Below the pieces are notes generated by a model. That model saw only the letters and a list, made by a program, of their open reading frames with translations. It searched no databases and had not been told where the DNA came from. From Natrarchaeobaculum aegyptiacum (GTDB lineage: Archaea > Halobacteriota > Halobacteria > Halobacteriales > Natrialbaceae), in the NCBI RefSeq assembly GCF_002156705.1, contig NZ_CP019893.1, positions 2,418,001 through 2,482,000 of the forward strand: 64,000 nucleotides of DNA, written 5' to 3'. Both the position numbers and the translations under genes were made by a program. Positions 18,245 to 27,729 of the stretch are shown piece after piece (within the stretch, counting starts at the first letter, position 1; each line of letters begins with the position of its first letter).

Positions 18245-18466
18245 ACACGCGACCAGTAGTCTATCCTGGTGTTCGGGCCCGATCGACTCGGAACAGACGA
18301 CGTGTTCCGGGCCCCAGGAGTCGACCGGACACCCGCGGTCAGGCCCGTCGATCGGCTTCTCGGTGCACTCTGAGTGGCGTCTCGTCGTGCCGGTGGTACG
18401 ACCGTCATAGGTCAGTGTTGCTGAACATTAGTCAACGGTGTGCCCTTCGTCGTGGGAGCCACCACC

Positions 18467-19222
18467 ATGGATGGACAGTCAGTCGGCCAGTACTTCGACG
18501 ACCGATCGGATAGCTACACCCGCGACGTCGGCATCGACGAAATCGAGTCGTCGACGATCGTGGACGGATTCATCGACCCGAATTGTACCGAAGGCGACTG
18601 GCTCCTCGAGATCGGCTGCGGTGACGGGCTGTTGCTCGAGTACGCGCTCGAATCGACGGACGTGACGGAAGGGTATGGGATCGACATTTCGGCATCGATG
18701 TTGCCCGATGGGAACGATGGTCGGGCAGAGTACATTCAGGGGTCGGCGACGGATCTTCCGCTCCCGTTCCAGCCGGAGACGTTCGACTTCGTCGTGATCG
18801 GCGACGTTCTCCACCATCTCGTCGGCGGGACCCGATCGGCGTCGAAAGGGACGGCACAGGCCGTCCTCGTCGAGGCCGCGAACCTGCTGAAGCCGGGGGG
18901 ATACCTCATCGTGAAAGACATCTACTATCACAGCCCTGTTGGTCCCGAGACGCTGACGTCTCACCTGATCTTCTACGGGCTCAAGTACTTCGCCCGAATC
19001 GCCGCACGGATCGACGAACAGGCAGCACCCGGATTGCTCGTCTCCTTTTATACACGCGACGAACTGACGTCGTTGCTCAGCCGGTCGGGAACGACGATCG
19101 TGGCCGAAGAAATCGAGAAGAAAAAGCAGCGTTCGATACCGAGACGCTTGCTGATCGGCGAATCGGGGTGTATTCGGCTGTACGCCCGACGAGAAGAGCG
19201 GTCTCGTTTTCGAGAGGAGTAG
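18467..19222 (+). CDS. Class I SAM-dependent methyltransferase
   Basis: A 251-residue methyltransferase. Motif I is LLEIGCGDGLLLEYAL (SAM-binding glycine loop), motif II the GYGIDISASML strand, motif IV DFVVIGDVLHHLVGG, and the post-motif region LLKPGGYLIVKDIYYH. This layout matches small-molecule methyltransferases of the Methyltransf_11 type (UbiE/lipid-like); the substrate is unknown. ATG at 18467 is chosen over a GTG nine codons earlier because alignment begins with the short N-terminal YFDDRSDSY helix. Base composition is slightly lower in GC than its neighbours. A PfkB-type kinase gene follows 79 bases later on the same strand. Confidence 0.88.
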   Translation: MDGQSVGQYFDDRSDSYTRDVGIDEIESSTIVDGFIDPNCTEGDWLLEIGCGDGLLLEYALESTDVTEGYGIDISASMLPDGNDGRAEYIQGSATDLPLPFQPETFDFVVIGDVLHHLVGGTRSASKGTAQAVLVEAANLLKPGGYLIVKDIYYHSPVGPETLTSHLIFYGLKYFARIAARIDEQAAPGLLVSFYTRDELTSLLSRSGTTIVAEEIEKKKQRSIPRRLLIGESGCIRLYARREERSRFREE

Positions 19223-19301
19223 CCAGAGCGAGTGCTGTATTCGAACCGTTCGTCAGAATAGTCGTCTCATAGTTACGAGCCACCACGTCTATCTGGCAGT
19301 T

Positions 19302-20282
19302 ATGACAGGTTCACCGGCGATCGTTTCGGTGGGCAGTGCACTGCTCGACGAACAGTATCTGGTCTCGAACTTGCCGAGACCGGATGCCGGGGCGTTCGTC
19401 CGTGAAGAATCGGTCGCCTTTGGCGGGGTCGCCGCAAACGTCGCGGTTGCGGTTTCACGGCTCGGCCACACAAGCGGCATCGTCGCCCGCCTCGGTAACG
19501 ACGACATCGCGGAGATGGTCACGTCCGACCTCCACGAGGAAGGCGTCGAAATCGATCGACTCCGTCGGAGTGACGACGAACGATCGACGTACTGTATGGT
19601 CTTTCGGGACCCTGACGGCGAACGAACGATCGTCACCAGAAGCGGCGCTGCCAGTGCCCTGCGACTGACCGACGACGACGTGTCGTACCTCCGGTCTGCC
19701 GACGTCGTCTTCGCAAACGGATTCTGTCCGGACGACGTTACCAGGACGGTCTCGAGGCTCGCCGCCGAGGGAACGATCCGACTGGCGTTCGATCTGGCGA
19801 GCCCGCTCGACGCGCTCGCTGGCCGGGCCACCAGCCGGGAAACGGTCGACGGACTGCTGTCGGAGGTGTCCCTGTTCGTCGCAAACGAGGCGTCGATCCG
19901 GTCGTACCTGGGAACTGATGGCAGGGATGCAGTCGAACGGTTGCGTCACCGTGGCGTTCGTCGAGGTGCTCTTACGCAGGGTGAAGACGGTGCCCTGCTC
20001 TGGACCGACGAGCCAGACAGCGCGGTCGTCGACGTTCCTGCACTCGACGTCGACGTCGTCGATACGACGGGGGCAGGCGATGCGTTCGTCGCTGGATTGC
20101 TCCATCGGTGGCTACTCGAGGGCGATTCACTCCAGTCCGCAGCAGAGTTCGCGACTGCTGGGGCAGGGTACAACTGTACCGAACCGGGCGCACGTGGCGG
20201 GATGGTCAGCGAGAAACGGATCGCCCGTCTGGTACGGGACGAATTGCAGCAGCGACGAGACACCGGCACGCAGGACTCATGA
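19302..20282 (+). CDS. PfkB-family (ribokinase-like) carbohydrate kinase
   Basis: A 326-residue ribokinase-fold kinase. The N-terminal signature is FGGVAANVAVAVSRLG and the C-terminal one DVVDTTGAGDAFVAGLL, whose Asp is the catalytic base and whose glycines form the anion hole; a VANEASIRSYLG segment and GALTQGEDGALLW precede it. It phosphorylates a sugar or nucleoside with ATP; the substrate cannot be assigned. It follows the methyltransferase and ends 88 bases from the convergent M50 protease gene, so it lies next to, but on the opposite strand from, the candidate peptide-modification operon. Confidence 0.9.
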   Translation: MTGSPAIVSVGSALLDEQYLVSNLPRPDAGAFVREESVAFGGVAANVAVAVSRLGHTSGIVARLGNDDIAEMVTSDLHEEGVEIDRLRRSDDERSTYCMVFRDPDGERTIVTRSGAASALRLTDDDVSYLRSADVVFANGFCPDDVTRTVSRLAAEGTIRLAFDLASPLDALAGRATSRETVDGLLSEVSLFVANEASIRSYLGTDGRDAVERLRHRGVRRGALTQGEDGALLWTDEPDSAVVDVPALDVDVVDTTGAGDAFVAGLLHRWLLEGDSLQSAAEFATAGAGYNCTEPGARGGMVSEKRIARLVRDELQQRRDTGTQDS

Positions 20283-20370: not shown

Positions 20371-21357
20371 TCAGACGACTCCGAAGACCGTCGCCAGAAT
20401 CACGACGTTGAGTACCACGAACACGACCGTGAAGACGACCACCAGGAGCGCGTACGCCGCTGGCCACGAGGTCGTCAGATCCCGCAGGTCGCGGAACCCC
20501 CGACTGCGCAGGTTGTGCCACCCCATCGCGTCCACGAGGATCCAGTAGCCGTCGCCCTCGAGCAACGGGTTGAGCACGAAGACGGCTCGAGCGGCGATCA
20601 CCAGCGCGAGAAAGCCGAGGATCGGCTGGCCGGGAACGACGACGAACGCGAGGGCGAAGCCGGTCGCGACGACGACGTCGGCGAACGGGCCCGCGGCGCT
20701 GATCCAGATCCGGACGTTGCGCGGACACTGCCAGGCGTCGGTCGTGCGCGTGATGATCGCCGGGATCACGCCGTTCAGGAGACCGAACCGGATCGTTGGA
20801 TCGAAGTACCGACGACTCGGGACGTAGTGACTGGCCTCGTGGATCGCGATGGAGCCGAGTAACACCGGGAGCACGACCAGTGCGAGCCCGGTGCCGAACT
20901 CGAGGTCGGCGGGTAGCGCCCGGATCTCCGGCCACCGGACGGTGATCGCGGCGGCGAAGACGGCAACGGTCGCGGCGAAGAGCCCGAAACGCGGTGCCAG
21001 TCGGATGTCCTCGGGCGTCTCGTGGTGGGCGACGTCCTCGCCGGGCCGGAGGTACCCCTCCTCGTACAGCAACGCGACCGTTCGCCGGACGCGCTCGTCG
21101 TGCGTTGACGGGTCTGTCCTCCCGTCTGCGAGGTCGCGCAACTGCCCGAAAAACGCCGGATGGACGCGCTTGTAGTCTCCCTCGTCGGATCGGAGCCACG
21201 TGGTTTCGTCAGTCTCGCCCCACGTGAAGCCGAATCCCTCCCGAAAAAGGGACTCGAGCGACGGGTCGATATCGGGGTCCGGACTCGGTTCCGCGTCGGG
21301 ACCGGCGCTCGGATCGTGACTGGAATCGGAGTCGTTATCGGTCACCGGTTCGGTCAC
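20371..21357 (-). CDS. M50-type membrane metallopeptidase with N-terminal PqqD/RRE-like domain
   Basis: A 328-residue protein with two parts. Residues about 40-108 resemble a PqqD-type RiPP recognition element: TWLRSDEGDYKRVHPAFFGQL followed by LADGRT and a two-helix region ending EEGYLRP. After a 30-residue acidic N-terminal tail and this domain come five or six membrane helices with zinc-site motif IHEASHYV (HExxH, residues 173-177) and NPLLEGDGYW (263-272), the third ligand region of site-2-type proteases. Such RRE-M50 proteins are found in peptide-maturation clusters, where they cleave or export a modified peptide. It follows the ATP-grasp gene by 6 bases. I infer it trims or secretes the peptide encoded at 22544. 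Confidence 0.85.
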   Translation of the reverse strand: MTEPVTDNDSDSSHDPSAGPDAEPSPDPDIDPSLESLFREGFGFTWGETDETTWLRSDEGDYKRVHPAFFGQLRDLADGRTDPSTHDERVRRTVALLYEEGYLRPGEDVAHHETPEDIRLAPRFGLFAATVAVFAAAITVRWPEIRALPADLEFGTGLALVVLPVLLGSIAIHEASHYVPSRRYFDPTIRFGLLNGVIPAIITRTTDAWQCPRNVRIWISAAGPFADVVVATGFALAFVVVPGQPILGFLALVIAARAVFVLNPLLEGDGYWILVDAMGWHNLRSRGFRDLRDLTTSWPAAYALLVVVFTVVFVVLNVVILATVFGVV

Positions 21358-21363
21358 GCTGGC

Positions 21364-22341
21364 TCACCTCACGTCCCCGCTCCGTTCGATTCCGTTCCCA
21401 CCCTCGGCCGGCCCAGCGAGTAACGCCGCGAGCGCACCCGCGACGTCCGTCCCGGCTCGTTCGTCGAACGCCGCGAACATCGGCGACGGGTTCGCCTCGA
21501 GCACCCGGTGGCCGTCGTCCCCGACGACGACGTCGACGCCCGCGAACGACAATCCGAGCGTGTCTGCAGCGGTCACGGCGTCCTCGGTGATCCCGTCGGC
21601 GAGCTCGGCGCGAGGAATCCGTTCGACGTCGTGATCTGCTGCGCGGTAGTCCAGTTCCTCGGAAATAATTCGTGCAGCGGCGACGGCCTCGCCGTCGACG
21701 ACGAAGATCCGCACGTCGTCGCCCTCGACCCGTTCCTGAAACTGCACCGGCGAGTTGGCCAGCAGTGAGAGCCGCCCATCGGAGAGATCGTCGACCTCGA
21801 GTGTGGCGGCGTGGCCCCCGCCGCTGACGGGCTTGTAAACGATTTGCTCGAGGCGATCGGCGAACGCCCGAACGGCACCGGGATCGCTCGTGGTCAGCGT
21901 CTCTGGTACCGGGACGTCGGCAGCGGCGAGCTGGGAGAGCTGCCACGGCTTGCGCGTGTGTACTCCCTGACTCTCGAGGGGGTTGACCATGCGAACGCCG
22001 CGGCGATCGAGCACGTAGAGCATCGACTCGAGGACGGCCTGATGCTCGCGCAACTGATTCAACAGCGAGTACGGACGCTCCTCGAGTTCGTCGCGGTACT
22101 CGGGCAGTCGGGGATTGAGTGCGAAGTTCCGGAGATAGACCGTGTGAACGTCCGTGCCGTCGACGACGGTCCCGTCGACCTCGAGGCGAACGTCCGGGCC
22201 GCGCTGGCGCATCGAGAGCGCTCCGTCGCCCGGCCAGTCGTCGGCGTCCCAGACGTGCGTCTCGACGTGCCGACCCTCGAGTTCGCGTTCGACGGCGGTC
22301 AGTTGTGGATCCGAGCGTGGACCGAGTAGGAGTACGCCCAT
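21364..22341 (-). CDS. RimK/graspetide-ligase-like ATP-grasp enzyme
   Basis: A 325-residue ATP-grasp ligase. The central ATP site is IVYKPVSGGGHAATLEVDD, then VQFQERVEGDDVRIFVVDG, and the Mg-binding C-terminal loop HRVLEANPSPMFAAFDERAG (EANPSP at about residues 282-287). The N-terminal domain has the LNPRLPEYRDELEERPYSLLNQ region seen in RimK-like and microviridin-type ligases. Such enzymes join carboxylates to amines or hydroxyls; in graspetide pathways they tie Asp/Glu side chains of a precursor peptide to Thr, Ser or Lys. The gene is first in a two-gene operon with the RRE-M50 protease and has a TATA box 27-33 bases upstream. Glutamylation of another protein is an alternative role. Confidence 0.88.
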   Translation of the reverse strand: MGVLLLGPRSDPQLTAVERELEGRHVETHVWDADDWPGDGALSMRQRGPDVRLEVDGTVVDGTDVHTVYLRNFALNPRLPEYRDELEERPYSLLNQLREHQAVLESMLYVLDRRGVRMVNPLESQGVHTRKPWQLSQLAAADVPVPETLTTSDPGAVRAFADRLEQIVYKPVSGGGHAATLEVDDLSDGRLSLLANSPVQFQERVEGDDVRIFVVDGEAVAAARIISEELDYRAADHDVERIPRAELADGITEDAVTAADTLGLSFAGVDVVVGDDGHRVLEANPSPMFAAFDERAGTDVAGALAALLAGPAEGGNGIERSGDVR

Positions 22342-22543
22342 TCGTCTGTATACTTACGGATAGGATGTATAAATTTAGTGCTGCATTTCCGTCTGTATCT
22401 TTCGGTTATTCGGCGATACTGGTTTCCTCAGGGGGTGTATGGTCGTATCTCGTTAATCTGGACCGGTTCTGGACTTCTGATTAGGAGAGTGAACGAACTC
22501 CATAATTATTTAGTGAAAAAAGTTATAAACTAACTTCGCGTCG
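22342..22543. promoter_or_regulatory. Divergent promoters of the ATP-grasp operon and the precursor peptide gene
   Basis: A 200-base AT-rich gap. Leftward, TATAAAT at 22368-22374 lies 27-33 bases from the ATG at 22341, so that transcript is leaderless. Rightward, TTATAAA at 22523-22529, preceded by the purine-rich GTGAAAAAAG, would start transcription near 22550. A 9-base direct repeat CGTCTGTAT occurs at 22343-22351 and 22390-22398, bracketing the leftward TATA box, a possible regulator site. The two units are probably controlled together. Confidence 0.6.
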
Positions 22544-22681
22544 ATGGTAATGGATATGGACTCAGAAACTGACGAGCCGATCCACTTCGTCGAAGACCTC
22601 GAAGAACGATCGAACGCGACGACCACCGGTGACGTCGTAACGACGATGGCGACGGGCGAGTGTCCCGAGAAGTGCTGGTAA
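22544..22681 (+). CDS. Candidate RiPP precursor peptide (45 aa)
   Basis: A short open frame of 45 codons. The N-terminal half is acidic and leader-like (residues 11-21 EPIHFVEDLEE) and the C-terminal half is Thr-rich (NATTTGDVVTTMATG) ending GECPEKCW. The pattern leader + Thr/Asp/Glu-rich core + fixed short tail fits a substrate for ATP-grasp macrocyclisation; the CxxxC pair could form a disulfide or be a recognition tail. With the TATA box at 22523-22529, transcription would begin near the third codon (ATG at 22550), so the true peptide may be 43 residues. A T6 run at 22712-22717 follows as terminator. It lies divergent from the ATP-grasp/M50 operon. I know no named family for it. Confidence 0.7.
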   Translation: MVMDMDSETDEPIHFVEDLEERSNATTTGDVVTTMATGECPEKCW

Positions 22682-22821: not shown

Positions 22822-23880
22822 TCATTCGAAGTGGATTAGCGGTTTGATGATTCCATCTTCCTTGTTGTCCATCAGTTCGAACGCCGCTTCGATCTCGTCG
22901 AACTCGAACTCGTGGGTCGTCATCTCTGTCGGGTCGACCCGGTCGTTCTCGAGCAGCCGAAGCAGCCGTTCGATGCGGAGTCGACCGCCCGGACAGAGGT
23001 CGGTGACGATGTCGATCTCGGCCATGCCGACGCCCCACTCCTCGCGGGGGATGTGGCGGAACTCACCCTCGCCGTGGTAGCCGACGTTCGAGACGGTTCC
23101 GCCGGGCTTGACGGCCTTGATGCAGTCCTGGAAGGTCTGATCCGTTCCCAGTGCCTCGATGGCGGCGTCGACGCCCTCGCCGTCGGTGAGTTCCACGATC
23201 CGCTCGACGGGATCGTGCTCCTGGAAGTCGACGACGTGATCCGCACCGTAGGTCCGGGCGAGTTCCTGGCGTTTCTCGACCGTCTCGACGGCGATGATCT
23301 CGCCTGCGCCCTGTAGTTCTGCTCCCTTGGTCGCCATCAGCCCAACTGGTCCCTGCGCGAAGACGGCGACGGTGCCACCGACCGGAATGGCCGCGTTTTC
23401 GGCAGCCGCGAAACCAGTCGTCATCATGTCGGTCGTGTACAGTGCCTCGTGGTCGCTGACGTCGTCGGGGATGTGTGCCAGATTCCCGTCGGCGTCGTTG
23501 ACGTGGACGTACTCCGCGAACGTCCCGTCTTTGACGTTCGCGAACTTCCAGCCGCCGAGGGCCTGGTTCGACTGGGACGCGTGCCCGTCCTGTGCGGCCC
23601 TCGAGCTCCAGTCCGGCGTGATCGCCCCGACTGCAACGCGGTCACCGGCTTCGAAGTCGGAGACCGCGTCGCCGACCTCCTCGACGACGCCGACGACCTC
23701 GTGACCGAGCGTGAGGTCCTCCCGGTCGCCGATCGCACCGTGAACGGTGTGACAGTCCGAGGTGCAGATCAGTCCCTGCGTCGGTTTCAAGATGGCGTCC
23801 GCCGGCCCCGGCTCCGGCGGCTCTTTCTCGGTGATCCCCGTTTCGCCGACCTCTTCCATGACGAACGCTTTCATGCTCAT
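22822..23880 (-). CDS. Zinc-dependent alcohol dehydrogenase (secondary-alcohol type MDR)
   Basis: A 352-residue medium-chain dehydrogenase. Catalytic zinc ligands are visible as Cys in GLICTSDCHTVHG, His in LTLGHEVVGVVEEVG and Asp in YTTDMMTTGF, the Cys-His-Asp set of Thermoanaerobacter/Clostridium isopropanol dehydrogenase. The structural-zinc cysteine cluster is absent, as in that branch. The Rossmann turn is FAQGPVGLMA, with a Glu after the second strand (IIAVETVEK), which suggests NAD rather than NADP. It would interconvert secondary alcohols and ketones. Start at 23880 (MSMKAF); the next Met two codons later is equally possible. Monocistronic. Confidence 0.93.
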   Translation of the reverse strand: MSMKAFVMEEVGETGITEKEPPEPGPADAILKPTQGLICTSDCHTVHGAIGDREDLTLGHEVVGVVEEVGDAVSDFEAGDRVAVGAITPDWSSRAAQDGHASQSNQALGGWKFANVKDGTFAEYVHVNDADGNLAHIPDDVSDHEALYTTDMMTTGFAAAENAAIPVGGTVAVFAQGPVGLMATKGAELQGAGEIIAVETVEKRQELARTYGADHVVDFQEHDPVERIVELTDGEGVDAAIEALGTDQTFQDCIKAVKPGGTVSNVGYHGEGEFRHIPREEWGVGMAEIDIVTDLCPGGRLRIERLLRLLENDRVDPTEMTTHEFEFDEIEAAFELMDNKEDGIIKPLIHFE

Positions 23881-23968
23881 GACTCGCTATCTCGCGACGC
23901 CGTCGATTCGCAAAAAGCTTTCAGCGACTCCCCTCCGGTAGTCGTCGCGTCGGCCCCGCCGCCATCGG

Positions 23969-24751
23969 TCACTGTGTGCCTTCCGAGTGGACGACCACCG
24001 CGAACGGGTCGTACCCGTCCTCGAGCAGCACGCGTGCGATCCAGCCGGATATCCAGGCCAGCGCGTTGAGTGCGTGGAACGTTGCGAGCAAGAGGACGAT
24101 ACCGAACGCAGCGGCCACGAGGGCCGACGAGAACGTCGTGATCTCCCAGTAGCCGACGGTGAAGACGGCCTCGAAGCCCACCAGCAGGTAGTTCCAGCCG
24201 AGATACAGTGACTGGTGGATCTCCGGGGCGCGATCGGTCACGACGCCGACGTACAGTCCCTGCCTGTCGTAGTACAGCGGAAGCGCGAGCATGCTCATCC
24301 CCGTCGAGAACCCCGTTACAGCGACCACGAACGAGACGAGTCCGAGCACGAACTTCACGGGGAGGTACAGCACCGCCGTCCAGGTCCTGTAGTCGGTCAC
24401 CAGCGACCAGAGCCTGTCGCGGCCGCGGTCACCGGTGAGGTCGGTGCGCGGTTCGACGTCGACGGGGAGCACGGTCGTCGTCAGCCAGCGCTCGAACCCG
24501 GCCAGCCCGAGCGCGAGTGCGATCGTGATCGCGAGCACGGGAATCCCGACGAGGAAAATTGCGAGTCCAAGTCCGACTGAGAGCCCGACCACGAGGAAGA
24601 CGACGTACGCGAGCCCGAGGGGGAACGCGAGCAGCACGTAACAGAGGTTCAGGTAGGTCTGGCGCTCGAGCGGGACGCCGACGAACCGCGCCACGCCGGA
24701 CCCGATTCGGCCGAACCGGCCGTCGGCGTCCGTGGGCGCTGCGCGTGCCAT
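23969..24751 (-). CDS. Sensor-domain membrane protein
   Basis: About 260 residues with six to seven membrane helices: TYLNLCYVLLAFPLGLAYVVFL near residue 35, GLGLAIFLVGIPVLAITIALALGLAG, LYLPVKFVLGLVSFVVAVTGFS, ending with FGIVLLLATFHALNALAW. The block 'TY.NL.Y.LLAFPLG..YF..LV...S.GL.....GIP.L' matches the haloarchaeal/actinobacterial 'putative sensor' family, often the membrane input of two-component systems; no kinase domain is attached here. ATG at 24751 is supported by a TATA-like GTTTATGTA about 29 bases upstream. A second copy of the family lies at 25996, across a regulator gene. Confidence 0.85.
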   Translation of the reverse strand: MARAAPTDADGRFGRIGSGVARFVGVPLERQTYLNLCYVLLAFPLGLAYVVFLVVGLSVGLGLAIFLVGIPVLAITIALALGLAGFERWLTTTVLPVDVEPRTDLTGDRGRDRLWSLVTDYRTWTAVLYLPVKFVLGLVSFVVAVTGFSTGMSMLALPLYYDRQGLYVGVVTDRAPEIHQSLYLGWNYLLVGFEAVFTVGYWEITTFSSALVAAAFGIVLLLATFHALNALAWISGWIARVLLEDGYDPFAVVVHSEGTQ

Positions 24752-24908
24752 TTCGGTCGGGAGTGCCTGACCTGCATACATAAACGTTCGCCTCGAGTTG
24801 TCGAGCCGACAGCTCGTCTGCGGGTGTTTACGCTGTTCCCGACGAGGGTTCGCCCACCAATGTCCACGCCGGGTGAATCGACCAGTGACTCTTTCGTCTC
24901 CCCGTCGA

Positions 24909-25274
24909 ATGTCGGCACTGATGGGCGACGACGCTGACGCAGACGTCGACGTCGTCGAGGTGCTCAGCGACGAGTACGTCCGGACGATCCTCACACAGAC
25001 CCGCGAGGAACCAAAGTCCGTCGACGCGCTAAGTGACGCCTGCGAGGCCGACCCCTCGACGATCTACCGTCGCGTCAGACAGCTCCAGGCAGTCGATCTC
25101 ATCGAGGACCAGCAGCAACTCGACCCCGGCGGGCACCACTACAAGGTCTACAGCGCCCGACTCGAGGAAGTGCGGATCCGACTCGCCGAAGACGGCCTCG
25201 AGGTCGACGTCGACAGGACGCCCACCGAATCGGCAGCCGATCGCTTCACCAGACTCTACGAGGGTTTCAAATGA
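24909..25274 (+). CDS. ArsR-type winged-helix regulator
   Basis: A 121-residue winged-helix protein: VEVLSDEYVRTILTQTREEPKSVDALSDACEADPSTIYRRVRQLQAVDLIEDQQQ, then a wing (DPGGHHYKVYSARLEEVRIRL). The recognition helix is PSTIYRRVRQLQ. It is of the haloarchaeal ArsR/HTH_20 kind usually paired with small membrane proteins. Its stop overlaps the next start by 4 bases (ATGA), so it is translated with 25271-25627. ATG at 24909 is chosen; a second ATG at 24921 is possible. It probably regulates this cassette and the flanking sensor genes. Confidence 0.87.
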   Translation: MSALMGDDADADVDVVEVLSDEYVRTILTQTREEPKSVDALSDACEADPSTIYRRVRQLQAVDLIEDQQQLDPGGHHYKVYSARLEEVRIRLAEDGLEVDVDRTPTESAADRFTRLYEGFK

Positions 25275-25627
25275 CCGGGAGTATCGGCGCGCTACAGGGA
25301 GGCCGCCCGCTCGAGGTGACGACGCTCCAGCAGGTCACGGGCGGGTCGCCGGCGGTCGTCCTGCTGGTGTTCCTCGCCTTGCTCGTCGCCACGGTGCTCT
25401 CGCTGTACCTCGCCGTCCGGCTCTATCGGGGCTACCGACGCGGTGGCGGCACCGGGATGCTCCTGCTCGGCACCGGGCTCGTCCTGCTCACGACGGTGCC
25501 GATGGTGCTCCGGCTGGCGCTGTCGAACGTGGGAGCGATCGACCCGGTCTGGCGTGAGGTGCTGGCGACGGCTATCCAGTTGCTCGGCCTCGTCCTCATC
25601 CTGGGGGTGGTCTATGGTCGTCGCTGA
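25271..25627 (+). CDS. Small three-helix membrane protein (DUF7521-like)
   Basis: A 118-residue protein with three membrane helices: AVVLLVFLALLVATVLSLYLAVRLYRGYRRGGG, MLLLGTGLVLLTTVPMVLRLAL and ATAIQLLGLVLILGVVYG. The RLYRGYRR basic loop after the first helix recurs in the next gene (AYQGYRRND), so the two are diverged paralogues. Haloarchaeal genomes often carry such pairs after a winged-helix gene (DUF7521, as I recall); no function is known. Overlaps upstream by 4 bases and downstream by 14. Confidence 0.8.
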   Translation: MTGSIGALQGGRPLEVTTLQQVTGGSPAVVLLVFLALLVATVLSLYLAVRLYRGYRRGGGTGMLLLGTGLVLLTTVPMVLRLALSNVGAIDPVWREVLATAIQLLGLVLILGVVYGRR

Positions 25628-25898
25628 TCCCGCGGTCGTGCTGTTCGCGACCGCGTTCGCGACCGCCCTCGTCGGGACGGGGGTTGCCTGGCTCGCCTAC
25701 CAGGGCTATCGGCGCAACGACAGCGACGCGATGCGCTACCTCGCGGTCGGGATCGCCCTCATCACCGTCGGCCCGTTCGTCGTCAGCTACGTCCTCTCGC
25801 CGGTCGCCGAACTGTCTGACGCGGCGACGCTCCTCGGCGTCCTCCTGGCGAACGTCGCCGGTCTGCTCGCGATCCTCTACTCACTCGAGGGGACCTGA
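25614..25898 (+). CDS. Small three-helix membrane protein, paralogue of preceding gene
   Basis: A 94-residue protein with three membrane helices (VVLFATAFATALVGTGVAWLAYQGYRRN, YLAVGIALITVGPFVVSYVL, LGVLLANVAGLLAILYSLEGT) and the same layout as 25271-25627, including the YQGYRRND loop. The ATG at 25614 lies inside the previous gene, a 14-base overlap in another frame, which implies translational coupling. It is the last gene of the regulator/membrane-protein operon. Confidence 0.8.
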   Translation: MVVADPAVVLFATAFATALVGTGVAWLAYQGYRRNDSDAMRYLAVGIALITVGPFVVSYVLSPVAELSDAATLLGVLLANVAGLLAILYSLEGT

Positions 25899-25995
25899 CT
25901 TCGCTTTTAAGAGTTTCGCCGAGTGGACGGGCCGACAACTCGGTTTCCCTCTTTAGGGACCTGTCCGTCGACGTCTCGATCGGGGATTCAGACCC

Positions 25996-26637
25996 ATGAC
26001 GACCGATCAGCAACCTCACGCGAACCGATCTGCCGGACGGCCCCTCCTTCGGGGGGTCCTGACGGCACCGATCGACCCCTGGACGTACCGCTCGCTCGCC
26101 TACCTGCTGCTGGCGTTCCCGCTGGCGATCCTGTATTTCGTCGTCCTCGTGACGGGCGCATCGATGACTCTCGGCCTGAGCATCACGCTGCTCGGCCCGC
26201 TCGCGTTTCTGGCGACCCTCCTGGCGATCCTCGCGCTGGCCTGGCTCGACGCCGCAGTGACCGACGGGCTGCTCGAGGTGGACGTCACGACGACGTTTCC
26301 CGAGACCGGGGAAGGGATCGTCGCGTTCGTGCGCGAGTTGCTCCTCGGACCGGAGACCTGGCTCGGCGCGGTCTACGTGCTGTGGAAGACGGTGCTCGGG
26401 TTCGTCGCGTTCGTCGGAATCGTCGTCGGTCTGTCGCTGGCCGCGAGTCTCCTCGTCGCGCCACTGTATTACGGCGAGCACGTCGTCGTCGGCTGGTACC
26501 AGGTCGACACGCTCGTGCGAGCGCTCCTCGCGGCCGCCGGTGGCGTGGTCGTCGGCTACCTCACGCTGTCGCTGGTGAACCTCACCGGACACCTGTCGGC
26601 CGTCGTCGCCGAGGGACTGCTGCCCGAGACGGCGTGA
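25996..26637 (+). CDS. Sensor-domain membrane protein (second copy)
   Basis: A 213-residue protein with about five membrane helices. TYRSLAYLLLAFPLAILYFVVLVTGASMTLGLSITLLGPLAFL matches the opening block of the protein at 23969-24751, so it is a paralogue, shorter by one or two helices. YVLWKTVLGFVAFVGIVVGLSLAASLLVAPLYY matches the later part. No output domain is attached. Its upstream gap carries a TTTAAGAG and TCTTTAGGG AT-rich patch near 25910-25960, a possible promoter. Together with 23969 it flanks the winged-helix cassette. Confidence 0.83.
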   Translation: MTTDQQPHANRSAGRPLLRGVLTAPIDPWTYRSLAYLLLAFPLAILYFVVLVTGASMTLGLSITLLGPLAFLATLLAILALAWLDAAVTDGLLEVDVTTTFPETGEGIVAFVRELLLGPETWLGAVYVLWKTVLGFVAFVGIVVGLSLAASLLVAPLYYGEHVVVGWYQVDTLVRALLAAAGGVVVGYLTLSLVNLTGHLSAVVAEGLLPETA

Positions 26638-26763
26638 GCGAGGATTATTGCTCGAGACGGCCTGATCGAGCCGTTCCGTTTTCTCGCCGCTCGAGTCTGG
26701 TCGGCTGACGCCGAGAAAACGTAGGCTGAAAACTGCTTGAAACCCGTGGACGCTCGCGGCCGA

Positions 26764-27597
26764 CTACTCGAGCGTCGTGAGCGTGACCCGGCCGGTCGAC
26801 GTCTCCACCCGGAGTGCCGGGCCGCCGTCGCCGAGCGTTCCCCGCACGCGGTCGTCATCGCGGTCGACGTCGGTCAGCTCGAGGTCGCCGACGTCGATTC
26901 GACCGGTGCTGGTTTCCACGTGGAGGTCGGCGTCGACGTCCGGCCCGATCGCCGCATCCACGCGGCCGGTGTTCGTCGCGATCGTCGTGTCGCCGTCGAT
27001 CGCCGGCACGTCGACGCCCACCCGGCCGGTGCTCGTCCGGACGTCCTCGAGGGCGTCGACGTTGCGAACCTCCACGCGTCCGGTGTTCGTAGTGACCCCA
27101 ACTGCGCCGTCGACGTTCGCGACGTCGACGCGGCCCGTGCTCGTGTCGACTGCGAGGTCGCCGACGACGTCCCGAACCGTCACGCGACCCACGCTCGTCC
27201 TGATCGTCTCGAGGGCGACGTCACGCGGAACGTCGGCGTCGATGTTCATCGTCGGGCGACTCTGGAACCAGCCCTCGTTGCCGTCCCACTCCGACCGAAG
27301 CTCGAGGAGGTCGTCTGCGCGATCGGTCCGGAGGGCGAGTTCCTCGAGGTCGGTCCTGATCGAGCTGGATTGCTTCTCGAGCTCGAGGTGGATCTCGTCG
27401 GCGTCGTTGCCGACGACCGTGATCCGGCCCGCCTCGCCACGGATCGCGACCGTCTCGGCGTCGTCGGGATCGATCGTCTCCGATCGCTCCAGTCGCTGGC
27501 CGACGAACGGCGTCATGCCGCTACAGCCGGCGAGCGCTGCGGACCCCGTCGCCGCGATCCCACCGAGCAGCGATCGTCGAGTCGTATCTGGCTGCAT
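26764..27597 (-). CDS. DUF4097-type beta-repeat lipoprotein
   Basis: A 277-residue exported lipoprotein. The N-terminus is a Tat-lipoprotein signal: TTRRSLLGGIAATGSAALAGCSG, with twin Arg and lipobox Ala-Gly-Cys. The rest is a right-handed beta-helix-like repeat of the DUF4097 kind; TxTGRV recurs about every 19-22 residues (STGRVDVAN, NTGRVEVRN, STGRVGVDV, NTGRVDAAI, STGRIDVGD, STGRVTLTT). Such proteins sit on the outer face of the membrane; function is unknown. ATG at 27597 (MQPDTTRRS) is chosen over an ATG four codons earlier because it gives the normal short Tat n-region. Confidence 0.88.
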   Translation of the reverse strand: MQPDTTRRSLLGGIAATGSAALAGCSGMTPFVGQRLERSETIDPDDAETVAIRGEAGRITVVGNDADEIHLELEKQSSSIRTDLEELALRTDRADDLLELRSEWDGNEGWFQSRPTMNIDADVPRDVALETIRTSVGRVTVRDVVGDLAVDTSTGRVDVANVDGAVGVTTNTGRVEVRNVDALEDVRTSTGRVGVDVPAIDGDTTIATNTGRVDAAIGPDVDADLHVETSTGRIDVGDLELTDVDRDDDRVRGTLGDGGPALRVETSTGRVTLTTLE

Positions 27598-27729
27598 ATG
27601 CGAATTCACGGGGGCGACCTACGTCAATCCAGACGCGGGGCTGTCGGTCGCCCAATCGACCCCCGAAATTTATGAGGGGCAGCCAGTTCCGTCGTGGGGT
27701 TGCTTAAGTCGTCAGGACGGCACCCTCGC

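Follow-up and report, generated by a model that had tools for sequence, protein, structure and literature searches.

A candidate graspetide-type peptide cassette in haloarchaea combines an ATP-grasp ligase, an M50 protease and a small precursor

We examined a stretch of 64,000 nucleotides (hereafter the window; positions 2,418,001 to 2,482,000 of contig NZ_CP019893.1) from the 3.93 Mb chromosome of the haloarchaeon Natrarchaeobaculum aegyptiacum and found three neighboring genes that probably constitute a self-contained cassette for a graspetide-type ribosomally synthesized and post-translationally modified peptide (RiPP): an ATP-grasp ligase would esterify the core of a small precursor peptide, and an M50 protease with a RiPP recognition element (RRE)-like domain would trim the peptide and release it. 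A first-pass annotation had described the two enzyme genes as an operon with a 6-base gap, divergent from a small open reading frame (ORF), and all three genes are present in that arrangement; its proposal that they form one modification pathway is supported by the constant pairing of the enzymes, the leader shared among the peptides and the affinity of the ligase to PsnB, the synthetase of the plesiocin pathway. The data show which genes are present, their homologies, their joint inheritance, the selection acting on the peptide and the intactness of the catalytic motifs.

Of 149 relatives searched first, 9 have the M50 protein, and a subsequent search of 392 genomes of the order found it in 17, with related loci in Halopiger, Halovivax, Natronolimnohabitans, Halorussus and Halocatena, among others. 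The first-pass annotation had reckoned that an M50 gene located elsewhere, or an ORF absent or frameshifted beside the pair, would speak against its proposal. Rather, each of the 21 intact M50 genes (the window's included) adjoins an ATP-grasp gene, and at all 21 of these loci, hence at every intact pair found in a related genome, a short ORF of 30–47 residues with the shared leader lies 20–256 bp from the enzymes. One further locus with the ATP-grasp gene alone also has a leader-type precursor, giving 22 precursors in total. Local synteny aside, no genes other than those for the ATP-grasp enzyme and the M50 protein recur at the 22 loci compared. The precursor may lie on either strand, 5' of the ATP-grasp gene or 3' of the M50 gene, and because its position and orientation vary in this way, its association with the pair is not explained by a single arrangement passed on by descent. 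The two enzymes have correlated distances (r = 0.91; 0 of 5000 permutations), a correlation that could come from shared species history alone; in same-genome paralogous cassettes (e.g., L030 and L031), both proteins pair with the same outside relatives.

Alignment of the 22 precursors revealed a common leader, HF(I/V)E..L...(E)ExRx(N/S/Q), followed by diverse cores; the window's leader is conserved at 21 other loci, beside the same enzymes. Quantification of pairwise codon differences in a 12-codon leader block of nine precursors gave 149 synonymous and 36 non-synonymous differences, and 165 of 209 base changes in the block fell at third positions, indicating purifying selection on the precursor. 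The small ORF is thus a genuine, selected gene, and a chance ORF is ruled out by the leader conserved beside the same enzymes together with the synonymous excess. A search with the window's peptide alone gave matches in seven genomes, all having the enzyme pair, plus two weak matches (E-values 0.002 and 0.007) inside longer frames of 168–177 codons. The 45-codon ORF of the first-pass annotation is thus a real gene, but its start was probably placed too far upstream: since the closest homologue begins MDSETDE, a start at 22556 (41 residues) is more likely than one at 22544. The annotated genes of the Halocatena salina and Halorussus salilacus plasmids do not include the peptide, no family was matched in an NCBIfam scan of ten precursors, and the precursor is without a hydrophobic membrane stretch. 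No PsnA leader for comparison was retrieved from the Protein Data Bank (PDB) or from papers.

Both sequence and predicted fold place the ATP-grasp enzyme among graspetide synthetases, away from RimK and F420 ligases. Of the curated families, TIGR04187 ("ATP-grasp ribosomal peptide maturase," GRASP_SAV_5884) scored best, at 108.4 bits (below the curated cut-off of 350 bits), and 26 of 26 homologues match it. When solved structures were searched by sequence with the window's protein, PsnB scored 165 bits (1.8e-47), PruB 58 bits and RimK 41 bits (about 1e-9), and with the family profile PsnB scored 247.8 bits; the clustering with ribosomal S6 or F420 ligases that the first-pass annotation had regarded as damaging was therefore not seen. 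A predicted model (mean predicted local distance difference test, pLDDT, 88.9) had PsnB as its top fold match (template modeling score, TM, 0.82), followed by PruB, AMdnB and MdnC, with LysX and RimK below. D270, E282 and N284, at ATP-grasp metal-binding positions, are invariant in the 26 homologues. In the ATP-grasp tree, in which PsnB and PruB cannot be placed because their own branches are too long, clade A (the window's family plus three loci from another family) separates from clade B (mainly Halorussus), and for a clade-B member, too, PsnB was the best match by a wide margin.

The cores follow the same division. A TT-x4-E motif is kept in 9 of 9 clade-A cores (as TTMATGEC, TTTVVGEC, TTLATGEC, TTMALGEE, TTLAVGEE or TTMAMGEE), and in four of the nine it reads TT-x4-EE, which we take to be the motif of plesiocin; the TT-x4-E motif fits Thr-Glu ester hairpins of the plesiocin type. 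One clade-B core, L051, also has TT-x4-E, and three precursors (L028, L047 and L048) carry a second element, T-M-A-C-(F/Y)-E, and a C-terminal ETGC. Thr, Ser or Lys donors precede Asp or Glu in the window's peptide and in all of clade A. The 13 clade-B cores are short and very diverse, and five of them lack this order. The first-pass annotation had proposed to look for an ORF ending in CPxxCW beside each pair, with conserved leader and tail and a variable core. The ORF, the leader and the variable core were found, but the CPEKC(W/S) tail is confined to one subclade of five precursors, the window's; we rejected it as a family signature, what the wider clade keeps being the leader and TT-x4-E. 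The label "graspetide-like" accordingly has good grounds in the window's clade; in the Halorussus clade, where 5 of 13 cores cannot form the usual link, it is tentative.

The M50 protein, judged by its motifs and its predicted model, is an intramembrane site-2-type metalloprotease. HExxH (residues 173–177) and NPxxxGDGY (263–271) are invariant or nearly so among 21 proteins, H173, E174, H177 and D269 being invariant in all 21. The daptide protease family NF041824 was matched by 21 of 21 proteins and the epipeptide family NF058609 by 15 of 21; the window's protein scored 60.5 bits with NF041824 (cut-off 300 bits), also far below the cut-off of NF058609, and its Pfam M50 score was below the gathering score. 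In its model (pLDDT 88.9), an N-terminal b1-b2-b3-a1-a2-a3 arrangement (residues 45–99), which is the RRE topology, precedes a helix bundle. Searching with the whole model gave fold matches that cover the protease part only, the best being the Methanocaldococcus (M. jannaschii) site-2 protease (probability 0.99, but E-value 0.03). Four distant archaeal M50 proteins (L092–L095) carry a PqqD domain, above the cut-off in two, and the haloarchaeal family is co-linear with three of the four through that domain (hhalign probability 99.6, residues 47–321). Because of this co-linearity and the predicted topology, an N-terminal RRE-like domain is likely, though not proven. The PqqD-like domain of the first-pass annotation is thus backed by predicted fold and co-linear homology, but not by direct sequence detection: Pfam, a PqqD profile run on the own genome and hhalign to genuine PqqD all failed. 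A PDB search with the RRE-like domain alone also failed, its low-E hits being designed repeat proteins matched by many weak pieces.

Together, these observations suggest the following pathway. The 41-residue precursor, consisting of an acidic leader (HFVEDLEERSN) and a Thr-rich core, would be bound through its leader by the PsnB-like ligase, which would use ATP to phosphorylate a core Glu (E35 of TT-x4-E, perhaps E38 or D26). Attack by a core Thr hydroxyl (T29, T30) would then form one or two side-chain esters, each with a loss of 18 Da, and a hairpin. After modification, the RRE-like domain of the M50 protein may capture the leader, and the intramembrane zinc site may cut near the EERxN box, so that the product is released at or through the membrane; the M50 protein would in this way replace the C39 peptidase-transporter of many bacterial clusters. 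Since no exporter or immunity gene is conserved, release may depend on M50, as proposed for EpeP (PMC10885120), or on general exporters. The most likely product is a compact, rigid peptide acting outside the cell, by analogy as a serine-protease inhibitor or antagonistic peptide.

Several points weigh against a graspetide-type cassette. Four clade-B precursors, L029, L050 (core NTVVSTPITWFGG), L052 and L055, lack both Asp and Glu beyond the leader box, and in L032 these residues lie only ahead of the Thr residues, so that a donor-before-acceptor link after the box is impossible in 5 of 13 clade-B precursors (5 of 22 overall). In the window's own subclade, a Cys replaces the second Glu of TT-x4-EE, and two nested esters would therefore need E38 or D26. 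To these can be added the TIGR04187 score below its cut-off, the escape of the PqqD domain from direct detection, the lack of a conserved exporter or immunity gene among the 22 loci, and the shared species history that might alone explain the correlation of enzyme distances. The ester links, cleavage site, export and activity are predictions.

The aberrant clade-B cores speak for a RiPP cassette in which the ligase carries out another reaction, that is, joining acidic residues before or in the E-x-R-x-N box to downstream Thr or Ser, activating the C-terminal carboxylate or adding an amino acid, with M50 releasing a C-terminal product as in pearlins: L029, L050, L052, L055 and L032 all keep the leader, the box and downstream Thr or Ser despite missing or misplaced Asp and Glu. 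Amino-acid ligation is known among ATP-grasp relatives, RimK being an example. The M50 proteases TglG and TmoG of the pearlin pathways release C-terminal amino acids (PMC10885120). However, in both clades the ATP-grasp enzyme is far closer to PsnB than to RimK, the precursor C-termini are not conserved, unlike pearlin scaffolds, and TT-x4-E is kept throughout clade A, and we consider this explanation unlikely for the family. For the Halorussus-type cassettes specifically, a non-standard ATP-grasp chemistry on Asp/Glu-free cores is possible though doubtful; there, acidic residues at the leader border would be joined to downstream Thr or Ser (acceptor before donor), or the C-terminus would be activated, with the single RRE-M50 protein serving for both recognition and release.

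Two further explanations were weighed. Regulated intramembrane proteolysis offers a model for a signaling or stress module, in which M50 cuts an acidic, possibly cross-linked peptide that is not secreted; the absence of a conserved exporter or immunity gene, the resemblance of the M50 core to site-2 proteases and the HFX_2341-type regulator adjoining the cassette in the window's family all point that way. This regulator is, however, a neighbor of the insertion site that is present without the cassette as well, the precursor is without a hydrophobic membrane stretch, and the core varies strongly between clades as in secreted RiPPs, making such a module very unlikely. A housekeeping glutamate ligase (of the ribosomal S6, F420 or lysine-pathway type) that has a site-2 protease as an unrelated neighbor, with an incidental short ORF, is hardly credible. 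Although the ligase contains a RimK-like Pfam domain and RimK-family models match it (every equivalog below its cut-off), PsnB is far closer, and the genome has two other RimK-like genes elsewhere (34–35% identity); moreover, the pair is patchy (17 of 392 genomes), moves with the peptide as a unit, and the peptide codons are under purifying selection. We rejected a RimK/F420-type housekeeping ligase on the first two of these grounds. A defense system was rejected since there was no PADLOC match, and a virus-borne origin since there was no match in phage records or viral contigs.

The layout of the locus is given in Table 1. As a TATA-like stretch lies about 30 bases 5' of the peptide start, the peptide transcript may be leaderless.

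Table 1. Features of the cassette, in coordinates of the window
Feature	Position	Strand	Basis or remark
Precursor peptide gene, 41 aa; leader MDSETDEPIHFVEDLEERSN, core ATTTGDVVTTMATGECPEKCW	22556..22681	+	Homologues with same leader; purifying selection
Alternative in-frame ATGs of precursor, upstream of 22556	22544 and 22550	+	Longest gives the 45-codon ORF 22544-22681
Conserved leader box of precursor, HFVEDLEERSNA	22583..22618	+	Leader codon block and alignment
TT-x4-E core motif (TTMATGEC), proposed Thr-Glu ester site	22640..22663	+	Kept in 9/9 clade-A precursors
Graspetide synthetase-like ATP-grasp ligase, 325 aa	21364..22341	-	TIGR04187 best NCBIfam; PsnB closest structure (sequence, fold); invariant D270, E282, N284
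Predicted intramembrane M50 (site-2-type) metalloprotease with N-terminal RRE-like domain, 328 aa	20371..21357	-	Zinc motifs, NF041824, predicted fold
Coding stretch for likely RRE-like domain (M50 residues 45-107)	21037..21225	-	Predicted topology; co-linear with PqqD domains of archaeal PqqD-M50 fusions
A+T-rich divergent intergenic region, TATA-like stretches toward both sides	22342..22555	.	Direct sequence reading; putative promoter role
TATA-like stretch GTTATAAA, peptide side	22522-22529	peptide gene	Direct reading of sequence
TATA-like stretch TGTATAAA, operon side	22366-22373	read on -	Direct reading of sequence

In the window's family, the cassette lies between the HFX_2341-type regulator gene and an MMPL transporter gene. 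In a congener without it (G003), the same two flanking genes are 35 bp apart with nothing between them, and at L026 the insert consists of the peptide, ATP-grasp and M50 genes only. The window has further genes between these flanks (18440-20282 and 22822-27609), including those for a methyltransferase, a PfkB kinase, an alcohol dehydrogenase and a sensor-like membrane protein, and the intergenic site seems to collect insertions. Two remnants suggest loss: a decayed cassette with a 63-residue M50 remnant beside the MMPL gene (L034, G022), and an ATP-grasp match with an in-frame stop next to a truncated M50 gene (L033, G097). Locus L032 (G128:C9) has an ATP-grasp gene and a leader-type precursor without M50, and its genome carries a full cassette elsewhere (L029), so that one protease may serve two precursors. 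In Halorussus ruber, salilacus and halobius (L056, L057 and L058), two tandem, strongly diverged ATP-grasp genes are faced by the M50 gene with the precursor between; by analogy with microviridin, two ligases may act on one peptide there. On the Halocatena salina plasmid (L049, 6680-8038), a 452-residue protein without an NCBIfam match is encoded directly 3' of M50 on the same strand and is a possible accessory gene. Elsewhere in the N. aegyptiacum genome (L076, G000:C1:1944791), a true PqqD-family RRE gene (103 aa, 72 bits) precedes a gene for a 167-aa protein resembling lasso-peptide B2 proteases, which suggests a second, unrelated RiPP cluster.

Among known systems, the plesiocin pathway (PsnA, PsnB) is closest: PsnB is the nearest solved ATP-grasp enzyme by sequence and fold, a single synthetase is used, and the TT-x4-E(E) core motif is presumably shared. 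Plesiocin differs in having four repeats instead of one or two short motifs, a second Glu where the window's subclade has Cys, and a peptidase-transporter instead of an RRE-M50 protease; the host here is an archaeon, and the clade-B cores have diverged strongly. Microviridin (MdnB/MdnC), PruB and CdnC represent the same ATP-grasp class and the next-best fold matches, but the microviridin leader PFFARFL (PMC8939145) and core differ from the haloarchaeal ones, and other export genes usually lie near. The proteases of daptides (NF041824), epipeptides (EpeP/YydH-LiaK, NF058609) and pearlins (TglG/TmoG) are homologous intramembrane zinc proteases whose partners are daptide, radical S-adenosylmethionine (SAM) or pearlin enzymes, whereas the haloarchaeal partner is an ATP-grasp ligase. 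The non-haloarchaeal PqqD-M50 fusions L092–L095 have the same domain order as the haloarchaeal protein, but no ATP-grasp ligase of the haloarchaeal family was found nearby, and other chemistry is expected. Two of them, L093 and L094, which come from other families in the same phylum, lie directly beside B12-binding radical SAM enzymes and probably represent another archaeal RiPP type that shares this protease architecture.

A 2022 survey of graspetide neighborhoods has no M50 protease among 18 common associated families, calls the leader-cleaving enzyme unknown, and reports that all graspetides characterized by then are protease inhibitors (PMC8939145). In a 2026 survey of more than 20,000 predicted graspetides, the sole archaeal group mentioned belongs to Thermoprotea; this group 36 is predicted only, and its partner is a chromosome-segregation-like protein, not M50, while groups 26, 30, 32 and 40 have unnamed proteases nearby (PMC13097080). 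A protease review links M50 enzymes to epipeptides and pearlins but makes no such link for graspetides (PMC10885120), and a paper on archaeal RiPP mining reports lanthipeptides, with "graspetide" and "ATP-grasp" absent from its main text (PMC12144867). In agreement with the first-pass annotation, which knew of no described haloarchaeal example, we found neither a haloarchaeal graspetide nor a graspetide-tied M50 protease in the literature, supplementary datasets lying outside the search; some loci may thus have been listed earlier.

The cassette looks like a new archaeal branch of a cross-linked peptide family known mainly from bacteria. Very few archaeal RiPP products have been characterized, those identified in the literature consulted being lanthipeptides (PMC12144867), and a compact, transferable cassette whose precursor genes were missed by annotation adds to them. 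Because its ATP-grasp ligase is tied directly to an RRE-M50 protease, the latter is a candidate for the leader-trimming enzyme of graspetides. With the TT-x4-E set, graspetide chemistry could be tested directly at high salt, and the cores without acceptors raise the question of whether these ligases carry out another reaction.

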